Origin: Parapedobacter luteus
GTDB taxonomy: Bacteria; Bacteroidota; Bacteroidia; Sphingobacteriales; Sphingobacteriaceae
NCBI RefSeq assembly: GCF_900168055.1
Contig: NZ_FUYS01000001.1
Coordinates: 62,001 to 126,000, forward strand
Direction: 5' to 3'
DNA length: 64,000 bases
Shown here: positions 46,146-64,000 of the stretch, in pieces
How positions within the stretch are numbered: position 1 is the stretch's first letter
Layout of the letters: every line of letters begins with the position of its first letter
Position numbers and translations under genes: made by a program
Notes under the pieces: generated by a model
What the model was told of the DNA's origin: nothing
Database searches by the model: none
Seen by the model: only the letters and a program-made list of their open reading frames with translations

Positions 46146-46921
46146 TGAATATTGTTTTGCTTGGCAGCGGTAATGTGGCGACACATTTGGGCCGGGCGCT
46201 TGTGGATGCCGGACACCGCATCACGCAGGTATACAGCCCTACCCAAGCGCACGCCATGGTATTAGCTGATGCGGTCAATGCCCGGGCAATTGACGACCTC
46301 GCGGTCGTTGAACCCAATGCAGACGTGTATGTCATCGCTGTAAAGGATGATGCTATCGCGCAGGTGGCGGCGCAGTTGCCACCATCGTCGAACGGTATCG
46401 TCGTCCATACAGCCGGAAGCGTAGCTATGGAGGTATTTGCAGGACACGCGGAGCGGTATGGCGTCGTGTACCCTGTACAAACCTTTTCCAAGGCCAAGGC
46501 AGTTGATTTCTCGGCGGTTCCTGTCGCTGTGGAAGCTTCCGATCCGGCGACATATACCGCGCTTGCCCGGCTCGGGGAAAGTTTGTCCACCCGTGTTTTC
46601 CCCTGTGATTCGGGGCAGCGCCTTTCCCTGCATGTAGCGGCGGTGTTCGCCTGCAATTTCGCTAACCACCTGTATGCCATCGGGGCAGGCATTCTTCGCG
46701 AACACGGGCTTGATTTCGGACTTATCCGGCCACTCATCCTTGAGACGGCGGAGAAGGTGATGATGCACGAGCCTGAGGATGTGCAGACGGGGCCGGCCGT
46801 GCGCAATGACATCGGCACGATGCAGCGGCATTTGGCGCTGTTGGACGGCCAGCCTGACTTAGCCGAGCTTTACCGGAAGTTGAGCGAGCGGATTGGTCGC
46901 CAATCAGCTCTTAAAACCTGA
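46145..46921 (+). CDS. Rossmann-fold DUF2520 protein
   Basis: 258 aa. N-terminal dinucleotide-binding start MNIVLLGSGNVATHLGRALVDAG and a C-terminal helical DUF2520 domain (AAVFACNFANHLYAIGAGILREHGLDF). The layout resembles NADP-dependent dehydrogenases of the F420/pyrroline-reductase type, but the reaction is unknown. Coupled to ccmF (TGATG); the stop overlaps the opposing receptor gene by 11 bp. Confidence 0.88.
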   Translation: MNIVLLGSGNVATHLGRALVDAGHRITQVYSPTQAHAMVLADAVNARAIDDLAVVEPNADVYVIAVKDDAIAQVAAQLPPSSNGIVVHTAGSVAMEVFAGHAERYGVVYPVQTFSKAKAVDFSAVPVAVEASDPATYTALARLGESLSTRVFPCDSGQRLSLHVAAVFACNFANHLYAIGAGILREHGLDFGLIRPLILETAEKVMMHEPEDVQTGPAVRNDIGTMQRHLALLDGQPDLAELYRKLSERIGRQSALKT

Positions 46922-49565
46922 ATCGCGTCGAAACGACGAACTGCCTTGGCCTAAGTTCAAAGTACGTTTCGACCAGTTGGTAGTCGCTGGAGAATTGTTG
47001 GGTATAGCGACTATTATCTAATAGGTTCTGCGCGTTCAGCACGATGTCGGTTTTCCATTTTTTGAGGTGATAGGTGTAGGAGCAGTCCACGAAGTATTGA
47101 GGACGGATACCTTCGATATTGTTCAAGTAGTAGGCATTCTGGACGGCGAAGCTATGCCGGTCGCCGATGTGCGTGCTGGCCTGTAAAAAGTGGTTTTGGT
47201 AGACCACGGTATTGGACTCCCCCATAGCCAGCAAAGTCTTCCCATAGCCATGGACCAACTTGTACGAAAATCCAAGGAAGTGCCACTTCGAGTTGACCAC
47301 TTCAAATGAGCCGTCCCATGAACGGCTTTTGCGTTTGGCCATTACGCCATTCAACAAGTAGTCGGCCTGTCCCAAGCCGGCATTGGCCTGCAGTTTGACC
47401 ACCGTCTTACTATGGGCAAAGAAATGGCCGTAACCTGCCGATAGGCGATGCATGGTATTTCTGCCGCTGCGATTCGCGATGCTTATTACGGATTGCGCGA
47501 GTGAATCTATCGAAGTCTGAAAGAGGTAGTCCTGTATCCGGTTGGCATAGTTGTAGCTGGCGTTGGCGAAAATGCCCTTCAGGGTGTGGTTGAAGTTGTA
47601 GGAGACGGCCGTACTTACCCCTTGGTTGCTTAGTAGGCGTGCGCTGTACCGCAGGAGGCTCCGGTATGTGCTGGCAATGTAGGCGTTGTAAAAGTTGTTC
47701 ATCTCCTCGAATTGCCGGCCATAGGAAGAGGTAATCCCCAGCTCCTGCCGACTGCTCAGGGCATAACGCACCGACGCTTCCGGATTGAACGTGTTCCTCG
47801 TCACATGCCGCAACGGCCGTTCGCCTTGCTGCTCCACATCAAACAGGTGGAGGGAATAGGGAAGGTTGCCCGATAGCTTCCAATTGCCACGCTCATAGTT
47901 GAGGCGGAATCCCATGGCTAATTGCCCCCTGCTGGCCACCATATCGTTCCAATAGCCTGCGCCCAAGTCGTTAGCCTCACCATCTACGGTAGTGGTTATG
48001 CCGGTTTTTAAGGTGCTGGAACGATAATTGACCATAAGCGATGGTGTGACGGACAGCCATCCAATCCGGCGAACGAAGCTGAGTTCGTTTTCTGTACGCA
48101 GGCTTCGGTAATCGATGCGTTGCCGCATCCGTTCGTAAGGCTCGCCGTTATTCAGTGCCTCCAGCAATTGACCGGGCTGAACAACGAGGTGCTGCGGCGT
48201 CTGCATGATTTCCACATCCGACTGAATAGTGATGAGTTGCTTGCCAATGAAACGTGCCAGCGACAGATTGTTCAGCAGGCTGAAATCATCGTAGGTGCGA
48301 TTCTGCGAGATATCGTTTGCCGTATTCAGCCGCAGGGCACCGCGGTCTCTATTCCAGCGGCTGTGGTAGTTCAGTTTATTCCGCAGGTATACCTGCTTTT
48401 CGTTCTTTTCCAGCAACAGGCCAACTGTCAGATCATTTAGGCGGTAGCGGTTGTCCACGGCTTCCGTCAACAGGATTTGCTGATCCGGGGCAAACACGTT
48501 CGTGGCCGTATATCCCCGGCGTTGCCGGCGGTCATTATAGAAAGCGATATTTCCTTTGACTTCCAATCCGCTGGATAGCTTTTGAAGTGCATTTGCGCTG
48601 ATCAAGAACAGTCGGTTGTCCAGCCATTTTGCTTCATCGAAGCCAGGGCTTGTTACGTCGCGGACGGAAAGATAAGACGGACCCGGGGTATTGCCGGTGG
48701 CCGCATGGAAAAGCTGTCCGCCGGTATAAAATGGCTGCAATGTCTTTGCTGCATCGTTGCCCGTATTGTTGGTTTGGCCGCTGGCAAGCAGTTGGAACGT
48801 CTTGCCAAACACCATCGGTGTGAAGTTGACGTCCCATAAGGCGGGCAAAGCGCCGGCGCCGACACGGCCCGTGCCAGTGGTGGTCACCGGATTTTTCAAT
48901 TCCAGGTTGAGCGAGGCGCGGTCGGAGGCGACCACCGAATCCAGCACCTTGATGGGCTGGTCATTCTCCACGATCTGTACATTCTTTACGGCATCGGCCG
49001 GCAAGTTGTTATTGATCATGCCGTAGCGTCCCTCCATCAGGTCCAGGTTGTTTACCATGTACTTCTGTATAGGCTTCCCTTGATAATAAATGCGACCGTT
49101 CACCACCTCGATGCCCGGTAGTTTCTGGATGATATCCCCGATAACCCTATCCTGACGGGAGGTAAACGCATCCACGACGTAGCTGATTGTATCGCGTCGT
49201 TTATATATCGGAAAAGGAGCCACGTCTACTTCCGCCAGCTCGGTATAGCTTGCTTCCAGCTTGATCGCATGGTCTGCGGCATTATTGGCGATGATGGCTC
49301 GCCATGTCCGGTACGTTAGGTGTGAAACCGCCAGTTCGATGCTGTCTGCATTTGTTGTATTGCTGGTAAGCCGGAAAGAACCATCCGGTTTAGTCATCGT
49401 ATACCCTTTGACGGCAGGGCTTCCGATTTCTTTGTAGGTGACGCTGGCATTGCCGATGGGCCGCCCAAGTGAATCCACGACACGGCCGGAAATGACCACC
49501 TGCGCATGAAGCAGCCCATTGCTCTGCAAGCAAATGATCAGTAGGATGATGTAGCGGATATACAT
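46911..49565 (-). CDS. TonB-dependent-receptor-like outer-membrane protein with carboxypeptidase-regulatory domain
   Basis: 884 aa with a signal peptide (LLIICLQSNGLLHAQ). An N-terminal CarboxypepD_reg-like domain (VVISGRVVDSLGRPIGNASVTYKEIG) and a plug-like domain (DRVIGDIIQKLPGIEVVNGRIYYQGKPIQKYMVNNLDL) are followed by a barrel ending VVSTRFRF. It starts 4 bp after the stop of a GLPGLI gene, the same spacing as the receptor remnant behind another GLPGLI gene at 56083. It closes the peptide array and is its only intact receptor copy; it may export, import or bind the peptides (inference). Confidence 0.85.
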   Translation of the reverse strand: MYIRYIILLIICLQSNGLLHAQVVISGRVVDSLGRPIGNASVTYKEIGSPAVKGYTMTKPDGSFRLTSNTTNADSIELAVSHLTYRTWRAIIANNAADHAIKLEASYTELAEVDVAPFPIYKRRDTISYVVDAFTSRQDRVIGDIIQKLPGIEVVNGRIYYQGKPIQKYMVNNLDLMEGRYGMINNNLPADAVKNVQIVENDQPIKVLDSVVASDRASLNLELKNPVTTTGTGRVGAGALPALWDVNFTPMVFGKTFQLLASGQTNNTGNDAAKTLQPFYTGGQLFHAATGNTPGPSYLSVRDVTSPGFDEAKWLDNRLFLISANALQKLSSGLEVKGNIAFYNDRRQRRGYTATNVFAPDQQILLTEAVDNRYRLNDLTVGLLLEKNEKQVYLRNKLNYHSRWNRDRGALRLNTANDISQNRTYDDFSLLNNLSLARFIGKQLITIQSDVEIMQTPQHLVVQPGQLLEALNNGEPYERMRQRIDYRSLRTENELSFVRRIGWLSVTPSLMVNYRSSTLKTGITTTVDGEANDLGAGYWNDMVASRGQLAMGFRLNYERGNWKLSGNLPYSLHLFDVEQQGERPLRHVTRNTFNPEASVRYALSSRQELGITSSYGRQFEEMNNFYNAYIASTYRSLLRYSARLLSNQGVSTAVSYNFNHTLKGIFANASYNYANRIQDYLFQTSIDSLAQSVISIANRSGRNTMHRLSAGYGHFFAHSKTVVKLQANAGLGQADYLLNGVMAKRKSRSWDGSFEVVNSKWHFLGFSYKLVHGYGKTLLAMGESNTVVYQNHFLQASTHIGDRHSFAVQNAYYLNNIEGIRPQYFVDCSYTYHLKKWKTDIVLNAQNLLDNSRYTQQFSSDYQLVETYFELRPRQFVVSTRFRF

Positions 49566-49569
49566 GGTA

Positions 49570-50439
49570 TCATGGGTATAGTTCTATCCAGTTGTTGTCT
49601 TTTGCCATTTGGGCCGCAATTTGTTTCCGTGCCTCTTCAAGCGCTCGTTCCTCATCGGGTGCATTTTCAAATCGGAGGGCTCCAGCGGTTTTGTATACAT
49701 CGAATATGTTGGCTTGATAATGCCGCCGCTCTCTATAAAGGCGCTCTTTAGTCGCGGGGGCAAACTCGTACCAATCCTGAAAATTGATGACCACGTTCTT
49801 ATCGATATTTCTGATATTAGTCATTTCAAAACGCCAAAAGTCATTGACGTCGGATATGGAAATTATCAGGCCCGGTAGTCCCGCAAATTTATAAGGCCCA
49901 TCCTGAATGGGGATGTCAGTAGTAAACCATGCTATCCAATGTCGATTGCCGAAGTACAGGTCGGCACGTTGGCAAAGCAAGTTTGCTATGGTCATGGTAT
50001 CTGGTCTAATGTCCCAATTTAAGTCCTGCTGGTATTCTTCGTAGTAGTAGATTACTTCTTTCCCATTCAAGTTCATTCCGAAGGGCGAATCATATGTTGT
50101 TATTGTCCCTGTCTCTTTGATGACTTGGTAGTTGAATGGGTCTACGGGCCGTAAGCCTATGGTCATACTTTTAGATTTTTTTTCAGCGTAATAAACCGAA
50201 TCCGCTCTGAATTTTTTTATGGATTGAAACAAAGAAAGTCCATCATTCAGCAGCAATTCAAAGTCGAGTTGTTTGCGGCTTTCGGTATCGGTGCTATCTG
50301 TTTGATAGGTTGCTCGGTAGATGACTTGGCGGTCGAAGTGCAGCGTATCAGTATGCTGTGCGTGATAACCGGTTTTTTGGCTAAAACTGTCTTGTGTTAA
50401 ACGTATCAGGCATAATATAATCAGCAGCTTACTTTTCAT
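49570..50439 (-). CDS. GLPGLI-family protein linked to the receptor gene (subfamily b-like)
   Basis: 289 aa, signal peptide (LLIILCLIRLTQDSFSQ). The N-terminal part LHFDRQVIYRATYQTDSTD with FELLLNDGLSLFQSI is of subfamily b; the signature is FAGLPGLIISISDVNDFW and the C-terminus ends DNNWIELYP. It lies 4 bp upstream of the receptor gene and is not preceded by a peptide gene, so it may serve the receptor rather than a peptide. Confidence 0.85.
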   Translation of the reverse strand: MKSKLLIILCLIRLTQDSFSQKTGYHAQHTDTLHFDRQVIYRATYQTDSTDTESRKQLDFELLLNDGLSLFQSIKKFRADSVYYAEKKSKSMTIGLRPVDPFNYQVIKETGTITTYDSPFGMNLNGKEVIYYYEEYQQDLNWDIRPDTMTIANLLCQRADLYFGNRHWIAWFTTDIPIQDGPYKFAGLPGLIISISDVNDFWRFEMTNIRNIDKNVVINFQDWYEFAPATKERLYRERRHYQANIFDVYKTAGALRFENAPDEERALEEARKQIAAQMAKDNNWIELYP

Positions 50440-50500: not shown

Positions 50501-51271
50501 CTATTTCTCGAAAAAGTTTTTTGTATGCTGCCGCATTTCTTCGTCCACCGGCCCGATATTGCCGGCCGCTTGATTGATTTGCAACCAATTATACCGATAA
50601 TTCCATTTTCGCTTATAAAGCTCCAGTTTGTTCACTACCTCGGCGCTATGCAGAAATGTGAGGTCAACTATGAAAGCCGGCACATGTTCTATCCGCTTCA
50701 GATCAAATAGCCAAGAATCAGTCCGATCACGGATTCTGACTATCAATCCCGGCAGTCCGCAGAATTTGTAGGGCCCGTCACTGATGGGTATATCTGGGCA
50801 GAACCAAGCCTCCCACGTCCGTTTTCCAAAGGTTAGTAATGCTTTCTGACACAAAAATTTGTTGATTGTGGCCGTATCATTCGTTAATGACCAGATCATA
50901 CTATCCTGTGATTCAACGTAGGTACAGATTACTCCTCCCAGCGTTTCAACCTGCTCATAATAATGCGTTTTTTGATCGGAATAGTCTTTAAGAATACGAT
51001 ATCTTGCATTAGTTGAAATGGCTTGTTCCGAGCGTCTCTGCAAACTTTGGTAGAACAGGGCTGTATCCTGTTCCGCTTGGAGAACCGTGCGAAACAGGGA
51101 TTTCCTCCCATTGACCAGCAGTTCGGTCAATTCCGTGGTGGTAAGGGAACTTGTACTATCCTTCCGGAATGACATGTCATAGTATATTTTATACCCTTCA
51201 TGGTTCTGTGCTGCCGCGGTAAAGAAAAATAAATGTACTAGGGATATTATTATCAACAGCTTACTTTTCAT
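50501..51271 (-). CDS. C-terminally truncated GLPGLI-family protein (subfamily a)
   Basis: About 256 aa from the ATG at 51271 (MKSKLLIIISLVHLFFFTAAAQ). Very similar to the copy at 60391 up to EEMRQ, then a different tail (HTKNFFEK) and stop. The final 16 or so residues with NNWIELYP are missing. The DNA shows a deletion between two GCTG copies: GTATGCTG is joined directly to CCGCATTTC, whereas at 60340-60465 these are about 105 bp apart. Whether the shortened protein works is unknown. Confidence 0.8.
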   Translation of the reverse strand: MKSKLLIIISLVHLFFFTAAAQNHEGYKIYYDMSFRKDSTSSLTTTELTELLVNGRKSLFRTVLQAEQDTALFYQSLQRRSEQAISTNARYRILKDYSDQKTHYYEQVETLGGVICTYVESQDSMIWSLTNDTATINKFLCQKALLTFGKRTWEAWFCPDIPISDGPYKFCGLPGLIVRIRDRTDSWLFDLKRIEHVPAFIVDLTFLHSAEVVNKLELYKRKWNYRYNWLQINQAAGNIGPVDEEMRQHTKNFFEK

Positions 51272-51363
51272 AAATGATTCATTCAAATGGCAATTTATAA
51301 ACTATTAAATTAGTTTATAATAATCGGGTTTGCAACCAGTTACAAAGATATTTTTCGGCATAT

Positions 51364-52203
51364 CTATGGGTACAATTCTATCCAATTGTTGTCATCGGCC
51401 AGTCTTTTGCTGTATTCTTTCCTGCCGCGTTCGTGAGTGTATTCCGCACTTGCCGGATGGCTGAAATCGGCACCTGCCGCCTCCATGTTGGCTACCAAAC
51501 TGTTTTGGAACTGTCTTCTTTCGCGAAACAGCTTTTCTTTCGTAGCCGGGACAAATTTATACCATGACTGAAAGTTCAGAACGACGACTTTTTCCACGCT
51601 ACGGATGTTGGTGAGATCAAACTGCCAGTGCCCTTTGGTGTCTGCAATGGAAACAATCAGTCCCGGCAGGCCGCAGAATTTATAAGGGCCGTCCGGTATC
51701 GGTATTTCCGGCGCGAACCAGGCAATCCAATGGCGCTTACCGAAATAGACGTCCGCCCGTTGACAGAACAGCTTGCCTATCCGCAAGGTGTCTTCTTTTA
51801 TCTGCCATTCCAACATGTCCCGCGGTTCATCGTAATAATAAATCTCATCCACACCCTGAAGGTTGATGCCGAAAGGTGAGTCGTAGGTTTTGATCTGATC
51901 TCCCCTTTTCACGATCTGATAGTTAAACTTATGTACGGGAGTTAAATGTATCATACCGATTTGGACTTTTTTCTCGGCGAAAAAGGCTGAATCCCGTTGC
52001 CCTTTTCGAATGGACCGGAATAAGGATACTTCATCGTTAAGCAACAGCTCCATGCCGATTTCCTTCCGGCTGGCCTCGTTACTGCTATCGGTCTGATAAG
52101 TAGCTTTGTAAATAACTTGGTGGTTGAAACGTAATTCTTCTTTTTCTTGGGCAAATAACAACGAAAAGGGAATTCCAAACAATGAAACGACGTATCTAAA
52201 CAT
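51364..52203 (-). CDS. GLPGLI-family protein (subfamily b)
   Basis: 279 aa with signal peptide (LFGIPFSLLFAQ). LRFNHQVIYKATYQTDSSN, ELLLNDEVSLFRSI, YYDEPRDMLEWQIKEDTL, FCGLPGLIVSIADTKGHW and DDNNWIELYP. Over 70% alike by eye to the proteins at 56947 and 58471. A GGAGAA at about 8 bp from the ATG is a rare visible ribosome-binding site. Just upstream is a leader-only peptide relic, so this gene has lost its peptide partner. Confidence 0.87.
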   Translation of the reverse strand: MFRYVVSLFGIPFSLLFAQEKEELRFNHQVIYKATYQTDSSNEASRKEIGMELLLNDEVSLFRSIRKGQRDSAFFAEKKVQIGMIHLTPVHKFNYQIVKRGDQIKTYDSPFGINLQGVDEIYYYDEPRDMLEWQIKEDTLRIGKLFCQRADVYFGKRHWIAWFAPEIPIPDGPYKFCGLPGLIVSIADTKGHWQFDLTNIRSVEKVVVLNFQSWYKFVPATKEKLFRERRQFQNSLVANMEAAGADFSHPASAEYTHERGRKEYSKRLADDNNWIELYP

Positions 52204-52219: not shown

Positions 52220-52288
52220 CTAAGTAATTATAGATTTCATCGGCTCCCTGGTTAATGCTTCTCCAAAATTTAAATTTAAAATATTCAT
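52220..52288 (-). pseudogene. Relic of a peptide gene: leader only
   Basis: 22 codons, MNILNLNFGEALTREPMKSIIT. It matches the leader of the other peptides up to MKSI, then the Gly-Gly and the whole six-cysteine core are missing and the frame stops in the sequence before the GLPGLI gene. MKSI resembles the leader of peptide E (MKSISGG), so the lost core was probably type II. Confidence 0.8.
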
Positions 52289-52565: not shown

Positions 52566-53384
52566 TTATGGATAACGCTCTATCCAGTTGTTATCTTTCG
52601 CGGCATGTGCCTTTGCTTTCTTAAATAATCGTTGTCGCACCGCTTCGCTTTCAAAAGGGCCTATTTTTCCAGCGGCTTCGTAAATTTCCATTTGGTTATC
52701 TCTATGGTGTCGTTTGCGTTTATAAAAATCCAACTTTCCCATAGCTTCCGCATCCTCCAGAAACCAAAGGTCGAAAGTAAAGGCAGGGACGCGTTCGATA
52801 CGGTGCAATTCAAACATCCATGACGCTTTACTGTCACGGATTCGGACAATCAATCCTGGTAATCCCCAAAATTTGTATGGGCCTTCACTGAGGGGGATAT
52901 CCGGTGTGAACCAAGCCTCCCAAAGGCGGTTACCGTAATTTAGCCAGGCTTTTTGGCATGGGTAACCGTGTATGGTCAGGGTGTCTTTTGTTAGGAACCA
53001 GCCCATACTGTCCCGGGGTTCGGCATAGGTACACATAGGACCGCCCAGTATTTCTATGACCTCATAGAAATGGCTGGCCTGGTCTTCGTGGTTTTTAAGG
53101 ATGCGGTACCTTGCACTGGTAAAAACGTTGATCAATGAGTGATCTATTTGATCCCTATGGTACCTATTGGTGTCTTTTTCAGCCTGTAAAACCGTCCGGA
53201 ACAAGGACCGGTTGTCACCGATGAGCAGTTCGGTCATCTCTGATGTCAATTGGGCGTCATTCGTATCCCGTTGGAAGGTCATGTTATAATAGACCTTGTA
53301 GCCGTCCTTAAAAGGCTGCTGTGCTTGAGCCGCCACTGTTAACATGAAAAAAACTGCTTGGATGGTAAATACTACATACTTCAT
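52566..53384 (-). CDS. GLPGLI-family protein (subfamily a), partner of peptide B
   Basis: 272 aa with signal peptide (FFMLTVAAQAQ). GYKVYYNMTFQRDTND, EMTELLIGDNRSLFRTVLQAEKDT, FWGLPGLIVRIRDSKASW and C-terminal DNNWIERYP. Best relative in the window is the protein at 33434, which also follows a type I peptide. The preceding gene (115 bp upstream) is peptide B. Confidence 0.87.
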   Translation of the reverse strand: MKYVVFTIQAVFFMLTVAAQAQQPFKDGYKVYYNMTFQRDTNDAQLTSEMTELLIGDNRSLFRTVLQAEKDTNRYHRDQIDHSLINVFTSARYRILKNHEDQASHFYEVIEILGGPMCTYAEPRDSMGWFLTKDTLTIHGYPCQKAWLNYGNRLWEAWFTPDIPLSEGPYKFWGLPGLIVRIRDSKASWMFELHRIERVPAFTFDLWFLEDAEAMGKLDFYKRKRHHRDNQMEIYEAAGKIGPFESEAVRQRLFKKAKAHAAKDNNWIERYP

Positions 53385-53498: not shown

Positions 53499-53696
53499 TC
53501 AATCTATACCACCATAACATCCCCCGCATTCGTCACCGAATGCGTCGCCACATTGCGATCCACACAAATCGAGATCGTCATGGCCGCAGGGATACGATTC
53601 TCCGTCTGTAAGCACGCATCTGACGTTGCCACCCGCTATTCCCCTCATTTCTTCCCTGCTAAGCGTTTTTCCAAAATTTAAATTTACGATATCCAT
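53499..53696 (-). CDS. Double-glycine-leader six-cysteine peptide B (type I)
   Basis: 65 aa. Leader MDIVNLNFGKTLSREEMRGIAGG-like (23 residues, ends Gly-Gly), with an Ala before GG. Core of 42 residues with cysteines C-x9-C-x7-C-x3-C-x7-C-x2-C, acidic (GHDDLDLCGSQCGDAFGDEC). Same spacing as peptide C. The GLPGLI gene at 52566 follows. Confidence 0.85.
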   Translation of the reverse strand: MDIVNLNFGKTLSREEMRGIAGGNVRCVLTDGESYPCGHDDLDLCGSQCGDAFGDECGGCYGGID

Positions 53697-53976: not shown

Positions 53977-55344
53977 TCAATCTAAAGCAGTCAATCTATC
54001 CAAAACCTGTTGAATGTCTGAAGATGAAGGTTTTGGTGCGCTCAAATCCACTAAAGTGAACCGTTTGTCGATCAATACATATCTTGGTATCTGCACCACG
54101 TTGTAGGCCGGCATCGAGTGGCGGTCGACAAGGCCTTCCAACGTAAAGTTTTGGTCCGTTGATTTGAGGAAATCCATCCATTTGCCGTGATCGGTGTCAA
54201 CGGATAGGCTCAGGAAAACGACATCCTTATTGTGATAAAGTGCCCCAAGGTGTTGGAAATTGGGCCGCTCTTCAATGCATGGGACGCACCAAGTCGCCCA
54301 GAAATCAATGTAGATAACTTTTCCCTCGTAATCAGACAAATGTGTTATGTTGCCACTTCCATCATGTATTTCGAAATCAACAGCCTTTTCCCCCGGTTTG
54401 AACGTTGTCAAGGCCAGCAACGATCGCTTCAAAGCGGAGGCGTACAATGGGCTTTTGACTCTGTCAATATCATTCGGGATACTGGCCAAGGCCACCGAGT
54501 CGTTCGATTCCACTCCGCGGGTTAGCGCTCTGTAAATACGGTTAGCTATTTGCCAATCTTCAAGCCGAGAGACGGCTTCAGTGTTCGTCTGCGGGTGTTC
54601 CAGGATGGTGGGAAGTATGTTTCGGTAAACCGTCAATTGAAGGAAGTTGGTATCCGCAAATTCTGTAGCATGCCGCTCGATATGGTTGGCCATGATCGCC
54701 TTAAATTTTTCGAAGTACGCCTCCACACTGTCTTGCTCAGTTTTATGTACATAGACGTAATATGAGGGGGCCATGTACAGGCTATTGATCAAATCCGCCC
54801 TGATGCGGGCATGCTCCAGCTCCCTGAACTTATCGGAAATACCATCAGTACTATCCAATACGGATGTGGCTTCCCTGGCCAAGGAAAGGATATGATCGAC
54901 GGTTTCGGAGCAGCCTTGCTTTACGGTCCTTCCGCCATCCAGATAAGACCCCGCTTTTGGCAACGGAGCACTTTTTAAATAGTCCTGTTTCCCTGCGCCC
55001 CTACCACTGAAATTTGAGTTGAATGGATCTTTTAAGTCTATCCTGACATGAATCGAATCCCCAGGCTCCAGATACAATTGGTTATAGCCGATTTTATAAT
55101 ATCCCTGATTCTCCGGCGAGAGGGCTATCTCAAATTCACCCTTATCATTTAGATTCAAATGATGACTCTCATCCAATGTTTTGAAATCACCTGTTTCTCC
55201 ATTATCAACCAAGTAGACCATTCCTTCAGCATTCGCGACTTTTCCATGAATATAGATCGTACCGGCATCCTGAGTATGCGTCCATGAAGATGGAAAAAGA
55301 AATACGGTCAAAGACAATAGGATTGAAAGTGATTTCGATATCAT
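53977..55344 (-). CDS. TlpA-family exported thioredoxin, partner of peptide D
   Basis: 455 aa with signal peptide (LSLTVFLFPSSWTHTQ). N-terminal beta-rich DUF4369-type region (IYIHGKVANAEGMVYLVDN), helical middle, C-terminal TlpA thioredoxin with FWATWCVPCIEERPNF (CxxC) and QIPRYVLIDKRF (cis-Pro). It reduces or shuffles disulfides in the periplasm. It occupies the place taken by GLPGLI genes in the other units, right after the type III peptide. Confidence 0.9.
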   Translation of the reverse strand: MISKSLSILLSLTVFLFPSSWTHTQDAGTIYIHGKVANAEGMVYLVDNGETGDFKTLDESHHLNLNDKGEFEIALSPENQGYYKIGYNQLYLEPGDSIHVRIDLKDPFNSNFSGRGAGKQDYLKSAPLPKAGSYLDGGRTVKQGCSETVDHILSLAREATSVLDSTDGISDKFRELEHARIRADLINSLYMAPSYYVYVHKTEQDSVEAYFEKFKAIMANHIERHATEFADTNFLQLTVYRNILPTILEHPQTNTEAVSRLEDWQIANRIYRALTRGVESNDSVALASIPNDIDRVKSPLYASALKRSLLALTTFKPGEKAVDFEIHDGSGNITHLSDYEGKVIYIDFWATWCVPCIEERPNFQHLGALYHNKDVVFLSLSVDTDHGKWMDFLKSTDQNFTLEGLVDRHSMPAYNVVQIPRYVLIDKRFTLVDLSAPKPSSSDIQQVLDRLTALD

Positions 55345-55444: not shown

Positions 55445-55675
55445 CTAAGACCGAAGGAACTGCGTCACCGGGCCTTCATGAACACAACCCTTAATCGTTT
55501 TGTTTCGATCACTAGGGCAACTTACATCGACACATAATTGGTTTGTCCCGCAATCACTGTGTGTGCTACATCCAGCATCACAAGCATCACTACCTCCTTT
55601 AATACTTCCTCCAGTAACCTGCTTCATCTGCTCCCTGGTTAATGCTTCTCCAAAATTTAAATTTACAATATTCAT
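55445..55675 (-). CDS. Double-glycine-leader six-cysteine peptide D (type III)
   Basis: 76 aa from the ATG at 55675, fixed by the shared leader (FGEALTREQMKQVTGG, 23 residues). The core of 53 residues has six cysteines in another spacing, C-x3-C-x5-C-x5-C-x4-C-x10-C, with SDCGTNQLCVDVSCPSD, and a longer tail (VHEGPVTQFLRS). Followed by a hairpin and a TlpA-like gene instead of a GLPGLI gene. Confidence 0.83.
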   Translation of the reverse strand: MNIVNLNFGEALTREQMKQVTGGSIKGGSDACDAGCSTHSDCGTNQLCVDVSCPSDRNKTIKGCVHEGPVTQFLRS

Positions 55676-55858: not shown

Positions 55859-56078
55859 CTATGCATTTAAGACGTATTTCAAATCAGCTATTGCATACAT
55901 TTCCGGCAACTGATAGCCATTGACAAAAAGTGTGGCGGAGCTTTGCGATCGGCATCGAGTTGCCGATGGGCTGCTCATCCGAATCTACTACTACTCGACC
56001 GGAAATGGCCGCCTGTGCCAGGCACAGCCCGCCACTTTGCAGGAAGACAATAAGTAGGACGATGTAGCGAATAAACAT
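55859..56078 (-). pseudogene. Scar: receptor 5' end fused to VKOR 3' end
   Basis: Starting 4 bp after the GLPGLI stop at 56083, the first 40 or so codons (MFIRYIVLLIVFLQSGGL...ISGRVV...QPIGN) match the start of the receptor at 46911. Then, near 55950, the sequence switches to the VKOR gene: first the segment around GGCGGAGCTTTGCG, then, after another deletion, the last 24 codons (LFVNGYQLPEMYAIADLKYVLNA). Both genes are non-functional here. Confidence 0.75.
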
Positions 56079-56082
56079 GATG

Positions 56083-56913
56083 TTATGGGTACAGTTCTAT
56101 CCAATTGTTGTCACGATTTGATTCATTCTGGTAAAATTTCCTTGTTTTTTCCAATCGCTCGGGCTTTACACCTCTGAACCGGCCCTCTGCCGACAGTAAT
56201 TCGAATAGATTAGCTCTCAAATACACTTTCTTTTCGAAGAAATCCTTTTTATTGGTATTGAGCGGCGGCGGCCCATTTGGTGTATGCAACCAAGATTTTC
56301 CGTGCTTGTTTAGATTGATGGTTATTATATCGAACCGCCAGTGGCCTTGATCGTCATAAGCGGATAAAATTAAGCCCGGAAGGTTGCAGAACTTATAAGG
56401 GCCTTCAGGCAACGGGATATCTTGCGCAAACCAAGCGATCCACTTTCTGCCCCCCAGCGCGACTGTTGCTTTTTGGCAAAGCATATTTTCAATAATCATG
56501 GTATCTGGTTTTATTTCCCATTTTAAAATATCCTTGGGTTCTGAATAATAATAACTATGAAATAAGTCTGGATGCAATACTTCCTGATGTATAATCGAAT
56601 CTTTTTTCTTTACTATAGTATAGTGGATGTCTGTAATGTTGTCTGCATAGAACGAAGAGGGAAGACCGCCCGAATTTCCCTTTTGGGCATTATGTGCCGC
56701 GGAGTCCAGCCGACCCGTGGCAATCGTCCTGAAGATTGACACCGTGTCGTTTAATCGTAATTCAGCGTATTCGTCTTTTGTGTCGTCTTTATTGGTGCTG
56801 TCCGGTTGATACACCACTTTGTAGATGATTTCTTTATCGAATGTAATCGGATTTTCTTGAGCAGAAGCACTGATTACCAATAGAAAATATGATATTAAAA
56901 TAACGCGTATCAT
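56083..56913 (-). CDS. Divergent GLPGLI-family protein (NLPGLI variant)
   Basis: 276 aa with signal peptide (LISYFLLVISASAQ). ITFDKEIIYKVVYQPDSTN, then FCNLPGLILSAYDDQGHW: the first Gly of the name-giving motif is Asn. C-terminus RDNNWIELYP. Most diverged copy of the array; like the one at 49570 it is followed 4 bp later by a receptor start, here only a remnant. 33 bp after the preceding GLPGLI gene. Confidence 0.83.
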   Translation of the reverse strand: MIRVILISYFLLVISASAQENPITFDKEIIYKVVYQPDSTNKDDTKDEYAELRLNDTVSIFRTIATGRLDSAAHNAQKGNSGGLPSSFYADNITDIHYTIVKKKDSIIHQEVLHPDLFHSYYYSEPKDILKWEIKPDTMIIENMLCQKATVALGGRKWIAWFAQDIPLPEGPYKFCNLPGLILSAYDDQGHWRFDIITINLNKHGKSWLHTPNGPPPLNTNKKDFFEKKVYLRANLFELLSAEGRFRGVKPERLEKTRKFYQNESNRDNNWIELYP

Positions 56914-56946: not shown

Positions 56947-57789
56947 TTATGGATAGCGCTCTATCCAGTTATTGTCATTGGCCAGTAGTTTGCTATATTC
57001 TATCCTTCCTCTTTCATGGGTATATTCCGGGCTTGCCGGATGGCTGAAATCGGCCCCCGAGGCCTCCATATTGGCCACCAGATTATCCTGAAACTCCTTG
57101 CGTTCGCGGAATAGCCGCTCCTTCGTAGCGGGTACGAACTTATACCACGACTGGAAGTTGAGTACGACGACCTTTTCCACGTTGCGGATGTTAGTCAGGT
57201 CGAACTGCCAGTGCCCTTTGGTGTCTGCAATAGATACAATCAGCCCCGGCAGGCCGCAGAATTTGTAAGGGCCATCCGGTATCGGTATTTCCGGTGCGAA
57301 CCATGCGATCCAATGGCGCCCACCGAAATGGACGTCTGCCCGCTGACAAAACAGATTGCCTATCCGCAAGGTGTCTTGTTTTATCTGCCATTCCAACATG
57401 TCCCGCGGTTCATCATAATAGTAAATCTCATCCACACCCTGAAGGTTGATGCCAAAGGCCGAATCATAGGTCTTAATTTCGGCTCCTCTTTTCAAAATTT
57501 GGTAATTAAGCTTATTTACGGGAGCCATTAGAAGTGCTGCTGTCCTTGTTTTTTTCTCCGTAAAGAAAATCGAGTCTTGCTGTCCTCGGTTGATGGATTG
57601 GAAAAGGGACATTTCATCGTTTAGCAATAGTTCCATATTGCGCTGTTTACGACTTGACACATCGTTACTATCAGTCTGGTAGCTTACCCGGTAAACCATT
57701 TGGTAGTTAAACTGCAATTTTTCCTTTTTCTGGGCAAACAGCAATGAAAAGGGAAACCCAATTAATAAAATAATGCATCTACACATCAT
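56947..57789 (-). CDS. GLPGLI-family protein (subfamily b), partner of peptide E
   Basis: About 280 aa from the first of two adjacent ATGs (57789), with GGAGAA at a proper distance; the longer frame would run into the hairpin. Signal peptide (ILLIGFPFSLLFAQ). LQFNYQMVYRVSYQTDSND, YYDEPRDMLEWQIKQDTL, FCGLPGLIVSIADTKGHW, C-terminal NDNNWIERYP. Follows peptide E (type II). Confidence 0.87.
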   Translation of the reverse strand: MMCRCIILLIGFPFSLLFAQKKEKLQFNYQMVYRVSYQTDSNDVSSRKQRNMELLLNDEMSLFQSINRGQQDSIFFTEKKTRTAALLMAPVNKLNYQILKRGAEIKTYDSAFGINLQGVDEIYYYDEPRDMLEWQIKQDTLRIGNLFCQRADVHFGGRHWIAWFAPEIPIPDGPYKFCGLPGLIVSIADTKGHWQFDLTNIRNVEKVVVLNFQSWYKFVPATKERLFRERKEFQDNLVANMEASGADFSHPASPEYTHERGRIEYSKLLANDNNWIERYP

Positions 57790-57810
57790 TAATTTCTCCT
57801 TACTGAATAG

Positions 57811-57831
57811 TGAGCCCAAGAAATGGGCTCA
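57811..57831 (-). terminator. Hairpin after peptide E
   Basis: Perfect 8-bp stem TGAGCCCA / TGGGCTCA with a 5-nt loop, 4 nt after the stop of peptide E and 21 nt before the GLPGLI start. Confidence 0.65.
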
Positions 57832-57835: not shown

Positions 57836-58030
57836 CTACGTTTCGCTTTCACCGCAGTCGGTTTCGGCACAAATTTGAGTGCAATTTTGCGGATTTGCAT
57901 CGTTGACATATACCGTGCAGCTCCAAGGGTTTAGCCCCCCTCCGCAATAGCATTCTCTGTGACCACCGGAGATAGATTTCATCTGCTCCCTGGTCAATGC
58001 TTCTCCAAAATTTAAATTTATAATATTCAT
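57836..58030 (-). CDS. Double-glycine-leader six-cysteine peptide E (type II)
   Basis: 64 aa from the ATG at 58030, fixed by the shared leader (FGEALTREQMKSISGG). A longer frame extends upstream but crosses the structured leader. Core of 41 residues with C-x-C-x8-C-x11-C-x3-C-x4-C (ECYCGGGLNPWSC ... CTQICAETDC). Nearly the same as peptide F. Confidence 0.85.
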   Translation of the reverse strand: MNIINLNFGEALTREQMKSISGGHRECYCGGGLNPWSCTVYVNDANPQNCTQICAETDCGESET

Positions 58031-58214: not shown

Positions 58215-58385
58215 TCCGTTTTACCAATCGTCCAAGGCCTGTTTGGTCGTTTGCTCGTAGCCTTTTCCGCAATCACCATAAGATGCTTGACCGGCGGAGC
58301 TTTGCGGTCGGCATCGAGTTGTCGATGGGCTGCTACTGCGCAGGCATACAATAAGTAGGATGACGTAACGGATAGGCAGTGTCAT
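58215..58385 (-). pseudogene. Scar: receptor 5' end fused to VKOR fragment
   Basis: The minus strand starts like the receptor (MTLPIRYVILLIVCLRS), then passes near 58310 into an internal part of the VKOR gene (the region corresponding to 62031-62120 of the intact gene, including GGCGGAGCTTTGCGGTCG). The junction TCG-GCATCGAGTTG is the same as in the scars at 55950 and 59850. Confidence 0.72.
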
Positions 58386-58470: not shown

Positions 58471-59310
58471 CTATGGGTACAGCTCTATCCAGTTGTTGTC
58501 GTTGGCCATCCGTTTGCTAAGCTCTTTTCTGCCCCTTTCGTGGGTATATTCCGGACTAGCTGGATGGCTGAAGTCAGATCCTTTGGCCTCCATGTTGGCC
58601 ACCAAATTGTCTTGAAACTCCCTGCGTTCGCGGAATAGCCGCTCCTTTGTAGCGGGTACGAACTTATACCACGACTGGAAGTTGAGTACAACGACCTTTT
58701 CCACGTTGCGGATGTTGGTCAGGTCGAACTGCCAGTGCCCTTTGGTGTCTGCAATGGATACGATTAGCCCGGGCAAGCCGCAGAATTTATAGGGCCCGTC
58801 AGATATCGGTATTTCGGGCGTGAACCAAGCAACCCAATCACGCCCACCGAAACGGACGTCCGCCCGTTGGCAGAACATATCGCCGATCCGTAATGTGTCC
58901 TCTTTTATCTGCCATTCCAGCATGTCCCGGGACTCTTCGTAATGATAAATCTGATCGATACCCTGGAGGTTGATATCGAACGCCGAATCATAGGTTTTGA
59001 TCAGGTTCCCCCTTTTCATGATTTGGTAATTGAACTTATTTACAGGCCGTATATAAAGCATCGCCATTGGGACTTTTTTCTCTGCGAAGAAAACCGAATC
59101 CCGTTGCCCTCGCCAAATGGACTGGAACAGGGATACTTCGTCGTTAAGCAACAGCTCCATGTTTATATCCTTCCGGGTTGCCTCGTCATTGCTGTCGGTT
59201 TGGTAGGTAACCTGATAGACGATCTGATGGTCAAAACGTAATTCCTCCTCTTCCTGGGCAAGCAAACGAGGAAGGGGAAACCAAAGCATGAAAATAATAC
59301 ATCTTGACAT
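58471..59310 (-). CDS. GLPGLI-family protein (subfamily b), partner of peptide F
   Basis: 280 aa from the ATG at 59310 (MSRCIIFMLWFPLPRLLAQ, signal peptide); the frame is open further upstream through the hairpin. LRFDHQIVYQVTYQTDSND, FCGLPGLIVSIADTKGHW, C-terminal NDNNWIELYP. Closest to the proteins at 56947 and 51364. Follows peptide F. Confidence 0.87.
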   Translation of the reverse strand: MSRCIIFMLWFPLPRLLAQEEEELRFDHQIVYQVTYQTDSNDEATRKDINMELLLNDEVSLFQSIWRGQRDSVFFAEKKVPMAMLYIRPVNKFNYQIMKRGNLIKTYDSAFDINLQGIDQIYHYEESRDMLEWQIKEDTLRIGDMFCQRADVRFGGRDWVAWFTPEIPISDGPYKFCGLPGLIVSIADTKGHWQFDLTNIRNVEKVVVLNFQSWYKFVPATKERLFRERREFQDNLVANMEAKGSDFSHPASPEYTHERGRKELSKRMANDNNWIELYP

Positions 59311-59334
59311 AATCAGTCTCTTATTTGCATTAAA

Positions 59335-59360
59335 TAGTGAGCCCGATGGACGGCCCACTA
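59335..59360 (-). terminator. Hairpin after peptide F
   Basis: 9-bp arms TAGTGAGCC / GGCCCACTA with one mismatch and an 8-nt loop, between the peptide stop (59388) and the GLPGLI start (59310). Confidence 0.55.
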
Positions 59361-59387: not shown

Positions 59388-59579
59388 TTACATTGGCATT
59401 TCTCCACAGTCGGTTTCCGCACAAATTTCGGTGCAATTTTTGGGGTTACCATCATTTACGGCAACAGGACAACTCCAAGGATCAAGTCCCCCGCCGCAAT
59501 AACAATCTCTACCTCCAGTCACCTGCTTCATCTGTTCCCTGCTAAGCGTTTCTCCGAAATTTAAATTTACAATATTCAT
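59388..59579 (-). CDS. Double-glycine-leader six-cysteine peptide F (type II)
   Basis: 63 aa from the ATG at 59579. Leader FGETLSREQMKQVTGG; core DCYCGGGLDPWSC ... CTEICAETDCGEMPM with cysteines C-x-C-x8-C-x11-C-x3-C-x4-C, identical in spacing to peptide E. The cores differ mainly between cysteines, suggesting selection on the framework. Confidence 0.85.
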   Translation of the reverse strand: MNIVNLNFGETLSREQMKQVTGGRDCYCGGGLDPWSCPVAVNDGNPKNCTEICAETDCGEMPM

Positions 59580-59694: not shown

Positions 59695-59764
59695 TCGCAT
59701 ACTTTTTTATATTTTATGTTGCTTAGTAAATAAATATAATCCTCCATTTTTAGTTATTCTATGT

Positions 59765-59930
59765 CCGTTTAATCGTCCAAGGCCTGTTTGGTCGTTTGCT
59801 CGTAGCCTTTTCCACAATCACCATAAGAAGCTTGACCGGCGGAGCTTTGCGGTCGGCATCGAGTTGTCGATGGGCTGCTACTGTGCAGGCATACAATAAG
59901 TAGGATGACGTAACGGATAGGCAGTGTCAT
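59765..59930 (-). pseudogene. Scar: receptor 5' end fused to VKOR fragment
   Basis: Almost identical to the scar at 58215-58385, with the same receptor start and the same VKOR segment and junction; a few substitutions and a small deletion near 59770. Confidence 0.72.
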
Positions 59931-60009: not shown

Positions 60010-60264
60010 TCTATGGGTACAATTCTATCCAATTGTTGTCATCGGTCAGTCTTCTGCTGTATTCTTCCTGCCGCGTTCGTGAGTGTATTCCGCGCTTGCG
60101 GGATGGCTGAAATCGGCGCCTGCCGCCTCCATGTTGGCTACCAAACTGTTTTGGAACTGTCTTCTTTCGCGAAACAGCTTTTCTTTCGTAGCCGGGACAA
60201 ATTTATACCACGACTGAAAGTTCAGAACGACGACTTTTTCCACGCTACGGATGTTACTTTTCAT
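60010..60264 (-). pseudogene. Chimeric GLPGLI gene fragment with frameshift
   Basis: Starts MKS, as in the signal peptide of the genes at 49570 and 50501, then jumps to NIRSVEKVVVLNFQSWYKFVPATKEKLF, the C-terminal third of subfamily b (as at 51364). The motif GLPGLI and most of the protein are gone. A one-base deletion near 60064 shifts the frame (RKNTAED), but the downstream DNA still encodes the NNWIELYP end in another frame. Confidence 0.8.
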
Positions 60265-60390: not shown

Positions 60391-61200
60391 CTATGGATAC
60401 AGTTCTATCCAATTGTTGTCCCTAGCCAAGTTAGCCCTACTGCTTTTTATCAGACGCTGCCGCATTTCTTCATTTACCGGTCCAATTTTCCCGGCCGCTT
60501 GGTTGATTTGCAACCAATTATACCGATAGTCCCATTTTCTCTTATAAAGCTCCAGTTTGTTCACTACCTCGGCGCTATGCAGAAATGTGAGGTCAACTAT
60601 GAAAGCCGGCACATGTTCTATCCGCTTCAGATCAAATAGCCAAGAATCAGTCCGATCACTGATTCTGACTATCAATCCCGGCAGTCCGCAGAATTTGTAG
60701 GGCCCGTCACTGATGGGTATATCTGGGCAGAACCAAGCCTCCCACGACCGGTTTCCATACACCAGTAGTGCTTTTTGGCACAGGAGTTTATTGATTGTAG
60801 ATGTGTCACTTGTCAATGACCAGGTCATACTGTCCTGCGATTCGGCATAGGTGCAGATAGCTCCTCCCAGCGTTTCAACCTGTTCATAATAATGTGTCGT
60901 TTGATTGGAATAGTCTTTAAGAATACGATATCTTGCATTAGTTGAAATGGCTTGTTCCGAGCGTCTCTGCAAACTTTGGTAGAACAGGGCTGTATCCTGT
61001 TCCGCTTGGAGAACGGTGCGGAATAGCGATTTCCCTCCACTGACTAATAATTCGGTCATTTCAGAGGTGGTAGCGGCATTCGTACTGTCCTTCCTGAACG
61101 TCATGTCATAGTAAATCTTATATCCTTCATTGTCTTGCGCTGTTGTGGTACAGAAGACTAGCTGCAGTATACTCAGCACCGTCAGCACCTTATTTTTCAT
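60391..61200 (-). CDS. GLPGLI-family protein (subfamily a), partner of peptide C
   Basis: About 269 aa from the ATG at 61200 (MKNKVLTVLSILQLVFCTTTAQ); an ATG two codons upstream is also possible. GYKIYYDMTFRKDSTN, EMTELLVSGGKSLFRTVLQAEQDT, FCGLPGLIVRISDRTDSW, and C-terminal RDNNWIELYP. Full-length sister of the truncated gene at 50501. Follows peptide C (type I). Confidence 0.88.
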   Translation of the reverse strand: MKNKVLTVLSILQLVFCTTTAQDNEGYKIYYDMTFRKDSTNAATTSEMTELLVSGGKSLFRTVLQAEQDTALFYQSLQRRSEQAISTNARYRILKDYSNQTTHYYEQVETLGGAICTYAESQDSMTWSLTSDTSTINKLLCQKALLVYGNRSWEAWFCPDIPISDGPYKFCGLPGLIVRISDRTDSWLFDLKRIEHVPAFIVDLTFLHSAEVVNKLELYKRKWDYRYNWLQINQAAGKIGPVNEEMRQRLIKSSRANLARDNNWIELYP

Positions 61201-61403
61201 CTGCATAAATGTTTTTTTAGGATGAAGATTGCAAAGTTGTTATACATTTTTCAGCGTATGGGGGTTTCATAGCGGATTATTTAGACGGTGTTACGGTAAT
61301 TAACCATGTAAATTAGTTGTAATGTAGATTTGCAGCTATTCGGAATAGAAATATCTTTTTCACGTGCTCGTTGCCGAATTACATTTCGTGAATTTAGTGA
61401 ACC

Positions 61404-61441: not shown

Positions 61442-61642
61442 TCACTGCGGGACAACCTCAAAACATCCGCCGCACTCGCCACCAAAAACGTTGCCACAAT
61501 CAGTCACACAATCGCTCTGATCTGAATAACTACACGGATAACTTCCACCATCAGTGAGTTGACACCAAATTAATCCACCAGTAACCTGCTTCATCTGCTC
61601 TCTGGTTAGAGCTTCTCCAAAATTTAAATTTACAATATTCAT
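61442..61642 (-). CDS. Double-glycine-leader six-cysteine peptide C (type I)
   Basis: 66 aa. Leader FGEALTREQMKQVTGG (23 residues), core of 43 residues with C-x9-C-x7-C-x3-C-x7-C-x2-C, ending CGGCFEVVPQ. It is the first peptide after the VKOR-thioredoxin gene, and its position likely shows the ancestral gene order VKOR, peptide, GLPGLI. Confidence 0.85.
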   Translation of the reverse strand: MNIVNLNFGEALTREQMKQVTGGLIWCQLTDGGSYPCSYSDQSDCVTDCGNVFGGECGGCFEVVPQ

Positions 61643-61755: not shown

Positions 61756-61823
61756 TTGCATACGTTTTTGATATTCCATGTTGCTTAGTAAATAAATACG
61801 ATACTCCTTTCTTTTTAGTTGTT

Positions 61824-63461: not shown

Positions 63462-63479
63462 AATGGCGAATTTCTAATA

Positions 63480-63547
63480 TCGGAATATCGTGAGTTGGGG
63501 CTTATTCAGGAAAAACTTTACGAAAACAGCGCGGATTTTTACGAAAA
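63480..63547 (-). promoter_or_regulatory. Operator-like direct repeats and weak promoter of the array
   Basis: Read on the minus strand: TTTTCGTAAAA (63547-63537), 10 bp, TTTTCGTAAAG (63526-63516), then 28 bp, then TATTCCGA (63487-63480). Spacings and order are the same as upstream of peptide cassette A (32865-32932). The predicted transcript starts about 15 nt before the VKOR ATG. The site also lies upstream of the divergent response regulator. Confidence 0.65.
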
Positions 63548-63592
63548 CTGATAAAATAAGCAACACCAACCTAAAAAAATAGTTGTGTGAAC

Positions 63593-63623
63593 TTGTATTT
63601 TTATAAGTGAAAGGGTATATTTA
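63593..63623 (+). promoter_or_regulatory. Candidate promoter of the response regulator
   Basis: TTG (63593-63595), 20-bp spacer, TATATTTA (63616-63623), a 7-of-8 overall fit in type to TAnnTTTG. Start predicted about 27 nt upstream of the ATG at 63654. The direct repeats at 63516-63547 lie about 46 bp upstream of the TTG. Confidence 0.45.
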
Positions 63624-63653
63624 CCTCATATCAAGGAAGACAAGCCAAAACAC

Positions 63654-64000
63654 ATGAACAACCAAAGCTGTATTCTAATTGATGATGAACCACATGCTTT
63701 AGGGGTATTGGGGGATGTTGTACAAAAAATTCCCGGTTTGGAAGAGCGGGGCAGGCACTCCGGAGCAATAGAGGCACTTGCCGATTTAAAGGAGAAAGGT
63801 CCGGTGGATTTCGTTTTTTCAGATATCGAAATGCCCGATTTATCGGGGATTGAGGCAGCCAGGCAGCTTCGCCCGTATTGCAAATATTTGATTTTCACGA
63901 CAGCTCACAGTAAGTATGCGTTGGATGCCTTTGCTCAATTTGTGGACGGATTTCTGTTGAAGCCACTTAGCTTACCCGCGGTATTGGAATGCGTGGAAGA
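63654..64000 (+). CDS. Response regulator, receiver domain (probably LytTR type), 3' end outside the window
   Basis: The visible 115 residues form a CheY-like receiver: acidic pocket IDDEP (residues 9-13), phospho-acceptor Asp in FVFSDIEMPDLSG, Thr in IFTTAHSKYALDAF and Lys in GFLLKPLS. SDIEMPDLSG and the TTAHSKYALDAF style are typical of LytTR regulators of Bacteroidota, but the DNA-binding domain is beyond 64000. Divergent from the VKOR gene and sharing its upstream region, so it is the likely regulator of the array. Confidence 0.85.
   Translation, partial: MNNQSCILIDDEPHALGVLGDVVQKIPGLEERGRHSGAIEALADLKEKGPVDFVFSDIEMPDLSGIEAARQLRPYCKYLIFTTAHSKYALDAFAQFVDGFLLKPLSLPAVLECVE

Follow-up and report, generated by a model that had tools for sequence, protein, structure and literature searches.

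In sum, our analysis describes an amplified array of genes for secreted, cysteine-rich peptides in Parapedobacter luteus. The array lies in a window of 64,000 nt (positions 62001-126000 of contig C16 in a 4.83-Mb draft genome of 28 contigs) and comprises genes for peptides with a Gly-Gly (GG) leader, genes of the GLPGLI family, a gene that fuses a C39-like, a VKOR and a thioredoxin domain (C39-VKOR-Trx, in the following the VKOR gene) and a gene for a TonB-receptor-like outer-membrane protein (OMP). On the sequence evidence, the array is real: it is an amplified version of a peptide locus of known kind, and its partner family has no known function. With about even chances, we read the locus as a conserved system for making and exporting acidic, disulfide-rich peptides that has been amplified in this lineage, and in which GLPGLI binds the exported core, as a carrier or as an immunity protein, together with the OMP.

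The conserved part of the system became apparent from 48 VKOR neighbourhoods of relatives, which were examined together with the two own loci. In 39 of the 50 loci, the 4-kb stretch downstream of VKOR contains a GG-leader cysteine peptide; among control stretches of 4 kb, this was the case for 1 of 192. All 50 loci together gave an ABC exporter in 38, HlyD in 37, TlpA in 28, a response regulator (RR) in 8, an OMP in 6, GLPGLI in 5 and a histidine kinase (HK) in 2; for the 48 relatives alone, the numbers are 37 each for peptide and ABC, 36 for HlyD, 28 for TlpA, 7 for RR, 6 for OMP, 3 for GLPGLI and 2 for HK. These counts are lower bounds, the ABC, HlyD, RR and HK profiles each being made from one own sequence, and the stretches of L062, L065, L083, L283 and L285 are ended by contig ends. 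Of the 151 genomes sampled from the family, 40 (the own genome among them) matched the VKOR gene in a protein search. Since peptide, TlpA, ABC and HlyD recur with VKOR, the conserved core is a putative disulfide-peptide export locus of the order VKOR - peptide - TlpA - ABC - HlyD. In the genome studied here, GLPGLI occupies the TlpA position, as it does in a few other genomes, and the cassette is amplified. Only 3 of the 48 relatives' loci have GLPGLI, which rules out an obligate partnership with the VKOR peptide locus.

The VKOR protein is equipped for disulfide chemistry and lacks the catalytic Cys and His of a peptidase. We aligned 49 VKOR proteins with 36 ABC exporters of more than 650 amino acids. 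All 49 VKOR proteins keep the same six redox cysteines, which make up the VKOR cysteine pair, the VKOR CxxC and the thioredoxin CxxC. The catalytic residues of the C39 domain are kept in all 36 exporters; among the VKOR proteins, the catalytic Cys is present in 0/49 (Asn is commonest there, in 36), the His in 0/49 (28 have gaps) and the Asp in 20/49. With neither catalytic Cys nor His in any of the 49, the C39-like part of the VKOR protein is ruled out as the protease that cleaves the leader. HlyB, a type I exporter, has a dead C39-like domain as well, which serves there to bind substrate; the dead domain of the VKOR protein may hold the leader while the core is oxidized. Neither did a PDB sequence search with the VKOR protein give a match, nor did a literature search find a paper on disulfide peptides marked by a C39-VKOR-Trx gene.

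The five intact peptides of the array have a mean identity of 0.77 in the leader and of 0.31 in the core, which is 40-53 residues long with exactly six cysteines each. All ten cores of the own genome are acidic (net charge -1 to -9). The 52 cores of relatives contain six (31 cores), eight (14), four (5), five (1) or three (1) cysteines, hence an even number in 50 of 52, and are negatively charged in 42, neutral in 6 and positively charged in 4 cases. One relative (L072:11065-12140) has three similar cysteine-rich GG peptides in tandem, with no TlpA or GLPGLI found nearby. Ten upstream peptides (eight with a Sec signal, two with a GG leader) matched no Pfam or NCBIfam family above cut-off. An earlier, sequence-only reading of the window had proposed a secreted system of disulfide-rich GG-leader peptides, and this proposal is borne out by the joint recurrence of peptide, VKOR, ABC and HlyD, the even cysteine numbers and the invariant redox cysteines. 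It had further expected peptide, GLPGLI and VKOR genes to occur together in related genomes, which holds for peptide and VKOR and only weakly for GLPGLI (3/48 loci compared to 28 for TlpA). GLPGLI as a dedicated partner had to be given up as the usual arrangement: TlpA takes that place in most loci, and elsewhere the clearest neighbour of GLPGLI is an OMP gene.

The layout of the array is given in Table 1. The inventory of the sequence-only reading was found as described: five intact and one relic peptide gene, all on the minus strand, with a leader of 23 residues ending in GG and a six-cysteine core in all five intact peptides. A GLPGLI gene follows four of the five, and the peptide at 55445 precedes TlpA instead. 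The framing VKOR gene matched three Pfam domains, and the divergent RR gene has a LytTR output domain. In the TonB-receptor-like gene, an N-terminal CarboxypepD_reg domain was matched; the barrel of the long remainder is an inferred one. Altogether, the array holds eight GLPGLI genes plus one remnant and one TlpA gene. Three array GLPGLI proteins that were scanned scored 133.7, 153.5 and 138.1 bits with TIGR01200 (cut-off 50), and the whole genome has 18 matches, all above cut-off.

Table 1. Features of the array and its surroundings (window coordinates; peptide starts are placed at the leader Met)
Feature	Position	Strand	Basis or remark
LytTR RR	63654..64000	+	runs on to 64397
HK, directly after RR	64399-65544 (L006:1399-2544)		HK adjoins RR
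C39-like (catalytically degenerate) + VKOR + thioredoxin, 545 aa	61824..63461	-	Pfam VKOR 5.9e-18, Thioredoxin_4 1.2e-10, Peptidase_C39 1.7e-6
GG-leader six-Cys peptide, type 1	61442..61642	-	
GLPGLI, class B	60391..61206	-	TIGR01200, alignment, AF2 model
GLPGLI remnant, C-terminal part, class A-like	60046..60264	-	repeat family D1
GG-leader six-Cys peptide, type 2	59388..59579	-	
GLPGLI, class A	58471..59358	-	TIGR01200 + alignment
GG-leader six-Cys peptide, type 2	57836..58030	-	
GLPGLI, class A	56947..57819	-	TIGR01200 + alignment
GLPGLI, divergent, closer to class A	56083..56913	-	TIGR01200 + alignment
GG-leader six-Cys peptide, type 3	55445..55675	-	
TlpA/ResA-like thioredoxin-fold protein	53977..55344	-	directly after type 3 peptide
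GG-leader six-Cys peptide, type 1	53499..53696	-	
GLPGLI, class B	52566..53384	-	TIGR01200 + alignment
Relic peptide gene	52220..52288	-	terminates within leader before GG
GLPGLI, class A	51364..52203	-	profile scan + alignment
GLPGLI, class B, altered C-terminus	50501..51286	-	profile scan + alignment; conserved tail gone
GLPGLI, class A	49570..50439	-	profile scan + alignment
CarboxypepD_reg + TonB-receptor-like OMP, 884 aa	46911..49565	-	barrel inferred
GG-leader peptide, type 1, free-standing	33129..33323	+	outside array
GLPGLI, class B, partner of 33129 peptide	33434..34264	+	TIGR01200 + alignment

Sequence comparison revealed repeats between the upstream regions of the cassettes. A copy of the 3' end of the VKOR gene (70% identical) and similar stretches lie upstream of several cassettes, and the sequence at 55884, 58221 and 59769 looks, by eye, like OMP 5' ends. 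This suggests that the array grew by unequal recombination, with a unit that would run from the VKOR end through the peptide and its partner. Debris resembling OMP 5' ends or VKOR-Trx fragments was seen between cassettes at 55884-56078, 58221-58385 and 59759-59930. Inspection of the upstream alignment by eye for a shared operator or promoter showed duplication including the VKOR 3' end and no proven promoter.

What kind of protein is GLPGLI? Family members have a signal peptide, the GLPGLI motif and an NNPIEL-like tail at the C terminus, and among the genomes sampled it was matched in 131 of 151 from the family (111 above cut-off) and in 18 of 61 from the phylum (14 above cut-off). The AlphaFold2 model made from 123 sequences (mean pLDDT 92.8, pTM 0.87), which superseded a run from nine sequences (pLDDT 51), has a signal helix, about 12 strands and C-terminal helices. 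Its best PDB match by Foldseek was PNGase F-II (4r4z; E 8e-11, about 205 aligned columns), followed by a plant/insect N-glycan active PNGase (7zgn; E 9e-9) and then by LolA proteins (LolA3 of P. gingivalis, 1.4e-5; LolA, 1e-4), ependymin-related proteins, VioE and MucB (1.6e-3). The position of the match, in the N-terminal "bowl" domain of PNGase F-II, agrees with the Pfam model PNGase_F-II_N (PF22252): 91 of the 123 members match it at E <=0.01 (best 1.4e-9), and the matching members from the own genome remain under the Pfam cut-off. GLPGLI is thus predicted to have the fold of the bowl domain, with LolA-type carriers next nearest. Half-barrels of the LolA type hold acyl chains and MucB holds a peptide; therefore, binding of a secreted peptide would be a natural reading for GLPGLI. 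The NNPIEL-type tail was found in 157 of 237 GLPGLI proteins with one loose pattern; in the window it reads NNWIELYP or NNWIERYP in 7 of 9 proteins (e.g. at 60391-60420) and is missing from the altered copy. In the model it has no regular secondary structure, with a mean pLDDT of 92 for block 261-270 and of 54 for residue 271, and it is perhaps a docking tail. A Cys at position 143, considered as a mark of peptide partnership, occurs in 47% overall and had no clear link. In the parts of the literature available to us, GLPGLI appears in gene lists and in regulation, with no function given.

The neighbours of GLPGLI genes were determined in three further sets: set (a), 80 named loci that are the best 80 of 553 by likeness to the array GLPGLI; set (b), 60 loci from within the own family, taken from high up in the match list; and set (c), 24 loci sampled phylum-wide. 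With the strict motif, a peptide precedes 8 of 14 heads of GLPGLI runs in the own genome (7 GG, 1 Sec), compared to 4 of 42 other genes (p 6e-4), and 27 of 99 run heads in set (a) (26 Sec, 1 GG), compared to 17 of 429 (p 5e-11). Of the 26 Sec hits in set (a), 22 are 44-86 residues long; four are doubtful (one of 78 residues and three of 130-146 residues: L090, L091, L096 and L101), and without these the count is 23 of 99 (p 1e-8). The mature parts are acidic in 23 of the 26 and have four cysteines in 14. Use of the Sec-type peptide profile to probe the converse association, peptide then GLPGLI, was abandoned; many of its matches were signal peptides. In two MAGs (metagenome-assembled genomes) of Bacteroidales/Bacteroidetes (L130, L152), tandem cassettes of Sec peptide and GLPGLI close with an OMP gene, parallel to the window array. 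A small, lipoprotein-like cysteine protein stands upstream of GLPGLI and OMP in Dyadobacter (L091:5441-5839, L096:5567-5959).

GG peptides directly upstream of GLPGLI were also seen in other lineages, namely at L265, in S. griseoflavum (L088, the same place as L057), in a Chryseobacterium MAG (L156), in a Flavobacteriaceae MAG with VKOR upstream and OMP downstream (L147), in S. chungjuense, where GLPGLI takes the TlpA place in the order VKOR - GG peptide - GLPGLI - ABC - HlyD (L093), and at L079, where the two genes are 58 nt apart and followed by OMP, VKOR, ABC and HlyD. At L075 the order is VKOR, two peptides, OMP, GLPGLI, ABC and HlyD, and in Chryseobacterium antibioticum (L117) GLPGLI lies just upstream of VKOR - peptide - ABC - HlyD. 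The strict motif recovered L093 and L265 among the 187 outside heads (99+63+25); L088, L147 and L156 were found by looser inspection, and L075 and L079 come from the VKOR set. The GG-linked proteins, counting L117, are scattered over a FastTree of 195 GLPGLI proteins, with a minimum of 11 changes counted without a shuffled-label control. In the own genome, five of the seven GG pairs join a type 1 peptide with class B GLPGLI and two join type 2 with class A. Core and GLPGLI similarity are correlated across the seven pairs (Mantel r 0.55; equally high in 58 of 5040 permutations).

In our model, the dead C39-like domain of the VKOR protein would keep the leader at the membrane, the C39-ABC/HlyD exporter (intact in relatives, interrupted in the own copy) would cleave after GG and translocate the core, and VKOR-Trx would oxidize the core cysteines. 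Periplasmic GLPGLI, with its signal peptide and its bowl/LolA-like fold, would bind the mature core and, together with the TonB-receptor-like OMP, either carry it across or protect the producer from it. Most cassettes carry a class-matched GLPGLI, so that each new core would have its own partner. That TlpA can stand in this position gives a stronger hint of a step after export (folding or hand-over) than of immunity; the class-matched GLPGLI genes hint at immunity. In a more general form, which we consider rather doubtful, some GLPGLI proteins would be LolA-fold periplasmic receptors for small, secreted, acidic disulfide peptides that they hand to a cognate TonB-receptor-like barrel or take over from it, and would form a peptide-trafficking or immunity system of the Bacteroidota with two export routes (Sec and C39-ABC/VKOR) and with cassettes that multiply and diversify together.

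Several observations weigh against GLPGLI as a binder of exported cores. Set (a) was selected by likeness to the array proteins. In set (b) a peptide precedes 6 of 63 run heads, compared to 7 of 117 other genes (p 0.38), which is no excess, and in set (c) the numbers are 4 of 25, one apparently spurious, and 3 of 65 (p 0.09). GLPGLI is missing from 45 of the 48 VKOR loci of relatives. Common descent of tandem-duplicated cassettes can by itself yield the correlated similarity of cores and GLPGLI. The best LolA structures matched at E 1.4e-5 to 1e-3, with TM scores of only 0.25-0.36 by query length; these matches are weaker than that to PNGase F-II, and a profile of nine sequences, run against the PDB sequences, recovered no LolA at E values up to 1. 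Finally, the own exporter is interrupted (see below). With an excess in the own genome and in set (a) and none in set (b), it is therefore some GLPGLI lineages, and not the whole family, that have peptides as partners.

GLPGLI might also have nothing to do with the peptides, being a partner of the OMP that was captured in the array through tandem duplication, and indeed the adjacency to OMP genes is the strongest association of GLPGLI. An OMP gene directly follows 43 of 144 GLPGLI genes in set (a), compared to 1 of 424 other genes; 44 of 71, compared to 6 of 135, in set (b); and 4 of 9, compared to 0 of 27, in the own genome minus the window array, which itself ends with an OMP gene. The VKOR loci without GLPGLI, the missing peptide excess in the sample from the own family and the duplication debris within the array fit this explanation as well. 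However, peptide-GLPGLI pairs stand without an OMP gene at three additional places in the genome (33129, L007 and L012), GG pairs recur in other lineages and Sec peptides are in excess in the 80 loci of set (a), so that we regard a role restricted to the OMP as unlikely. The pair at 33129-34264, also of type 1, lies among glycosyltransferase-like genes (named by eye), with no adjoining OMP, VKOR or exporter gene.

A further possibility is that the peptides are pheromones that, once secreted, are detected by the neighbouring LytTR two-component system or via the OMP. The sequence-only reading had advised a search for a histidine kinase past 64000, and one was found directly beside the RR. LytTR regulators serve peptide quorum systems, the cores are acidic, and HK- and RR-like genes (named by eye) stand beside two other own GLPGLI loci: L012, which is a further type 1 pair, and L011, where 3688-5779 holds a Sec-exported small cysteine protein, two GLPGLI genes, an OMP gene and the divergent HK- and RR-like genes. 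But an RR accompanies only 7 and an HK only 2 of the 48 VKOR loci of relatives (single-sequence profiles of limited reach), and several diverse cores in one array would ill suit one sensor; signalling is, in our view, improbable.

The same advice concerned a C39 ABC exporter past 64000. HlyD and C39-ABC genes do lie about 7-11 kb past the window end, although the C39-ABC gene has an in-frame stop. Behind the HK follow TlpA, an eight-cysteine GG peptide, an SdpB-like protein with two small proteins, a split TlpA-like gene, HlyD, C39-ABC, TlpA and a GG peptide. In the exporter (L006:9456-11660, about 134.5-136.7 kb of C16), the in-frame TAA falls in the C39 domain between the catalytic Cys and His. 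A search of the genome for C39 domains gave four places, two exporters and two VKOR proteins; the second exporter (L007:11138-11676) is a remnant, which leaves the interrupted one as the only near-complete C39 exporter of the genome. The remnant belongs to a second locus, near 300 kb of C16, where exporter and HlyD are both reduced to remnants and lie with class B GLPGLI, a type 1 peptide and another C39-VKOR-Trx gene. Past the window end, the SdpB-like protein and the two small proteins without known family (L006:4373-6248; TIGR04033, 25.8 bits compared to a cut-off of 178.4) lie between GG peptide/TlpA units, and the TlpA-like gene at L006:6530-8060 (by eye) extends over two overlapping frames and is perhaps broken.

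The interrupted exporter is the main caution on the export reading. The stop may be an assembly error of the draft genome; alternatively, the array may be decaying, in which case its layout would have little functional meaning. The stop, the remnant of the second exporter, the relic peptide, the GLPGLI remnant and the repeat debris all speak for decay. Against it, five peptide and seven GLPGLI frames are open with their motifs conserved, the stop may not be real, and the ABC proteins of more than 650 amino acids of relatives keep the catalytic Cys, His and Asp throughout. We therefore consider decay to be unlikely as an explanation of the array.

GLPGLI is named solely for its motif, and the peptide cassettes make a possible role testable. 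Together with the link to the bowl-domain fold, the cassettes pose one question for both families: do they bind secreted cysteine-rich peptides? Moreover, the C39-VKOR-Trx gene marks a large pool of disulfide peptides in the family.

The array may also be weighed against the bacteroidetocins (class IIf), a comparison made here from their published descriptions. Bacteroidetocins kill and target BamA (PMC8546649), and by analogy the array peptides could be toxins against related bacteria, with each GLPGLI sequestering its own peptide in the periplasm and the OMP as target or decoy. The class match in all seven type 1 and type 2 pairs, the conserved leader next to diverse cores and the similar locus order are consistent with bacteriocins and dedicated immunity, and the GLPGLI genes without an intact upstream peptide (50501, 51364, 49570 and 56083) could be orphan immunity genes. 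However, the described bacteroidetocin loci carry no immunity gene and their cores are basic (both PMC6671954), unlike the acidic array cores; most VKOR loci of relatives lack GLPGLI; TlpA, in the same position, is not an obvious immunity protein; and an upstream peptide is missing from most GLPGLI run heads of sets (a) to (c). We thus hold a bacteriocin with dedicated immunity to be possible but somewhat unlikely.

According to Coyne et al. 2019 (PMC6671954), a bacteroidetocin locus is ordered 5-transmembrane protein, peptide, thiol oxidoreductase and C39-ABC, which resembles VKOR - peptide - TlpA - ABC - HlyD; GG leader, cysteine-rich core, disulfide machinery and C39-ABC exporter (here with the in-frame stop) are shared, and VKOR-Trx plus TlpA are the counterpart of the thiol oxidoreductase. 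The bacteroidetocin leader has 15-16 residues compared to 23 in the array, and the core has 42 residues with four cysteines compared to 40-53 residues with six (three to eight in relatives). The C39-like/VKOR/Trx fusion, the tandem cassettes with GLPGLI partners and the OMP gene set the array apart from the bacteroidetocin loci. The array leader is also similar to the Bacteroidota GG leaders of NCBIfam leader_Chryseo (NF047798) and TIGR04149, with every match below the curated cut-off; for TIGR04149, an rSAM-modified RiPP precursor family, the best of four own peptides scanned scored 20.5 compared to 25. Many members of the GLPGLI family (TIGR01200/PF09697 Porph_ging) precede an OMP gene elsewhere, whereas most follow GG peptides here. 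LolA, LolB and MucB are the next structural matches to the GLPGLI model, at low TM and with no LolA found by sequence profile. The nearest relative by fold, the PNGase F-II bowl (PF22252; 4r4z, 4r4x, 7zgn), is described as a unique structure of unknown function (PMC9522356); there it is a domain on a glycanase, whereas GLPGLI is a free-standing protein.

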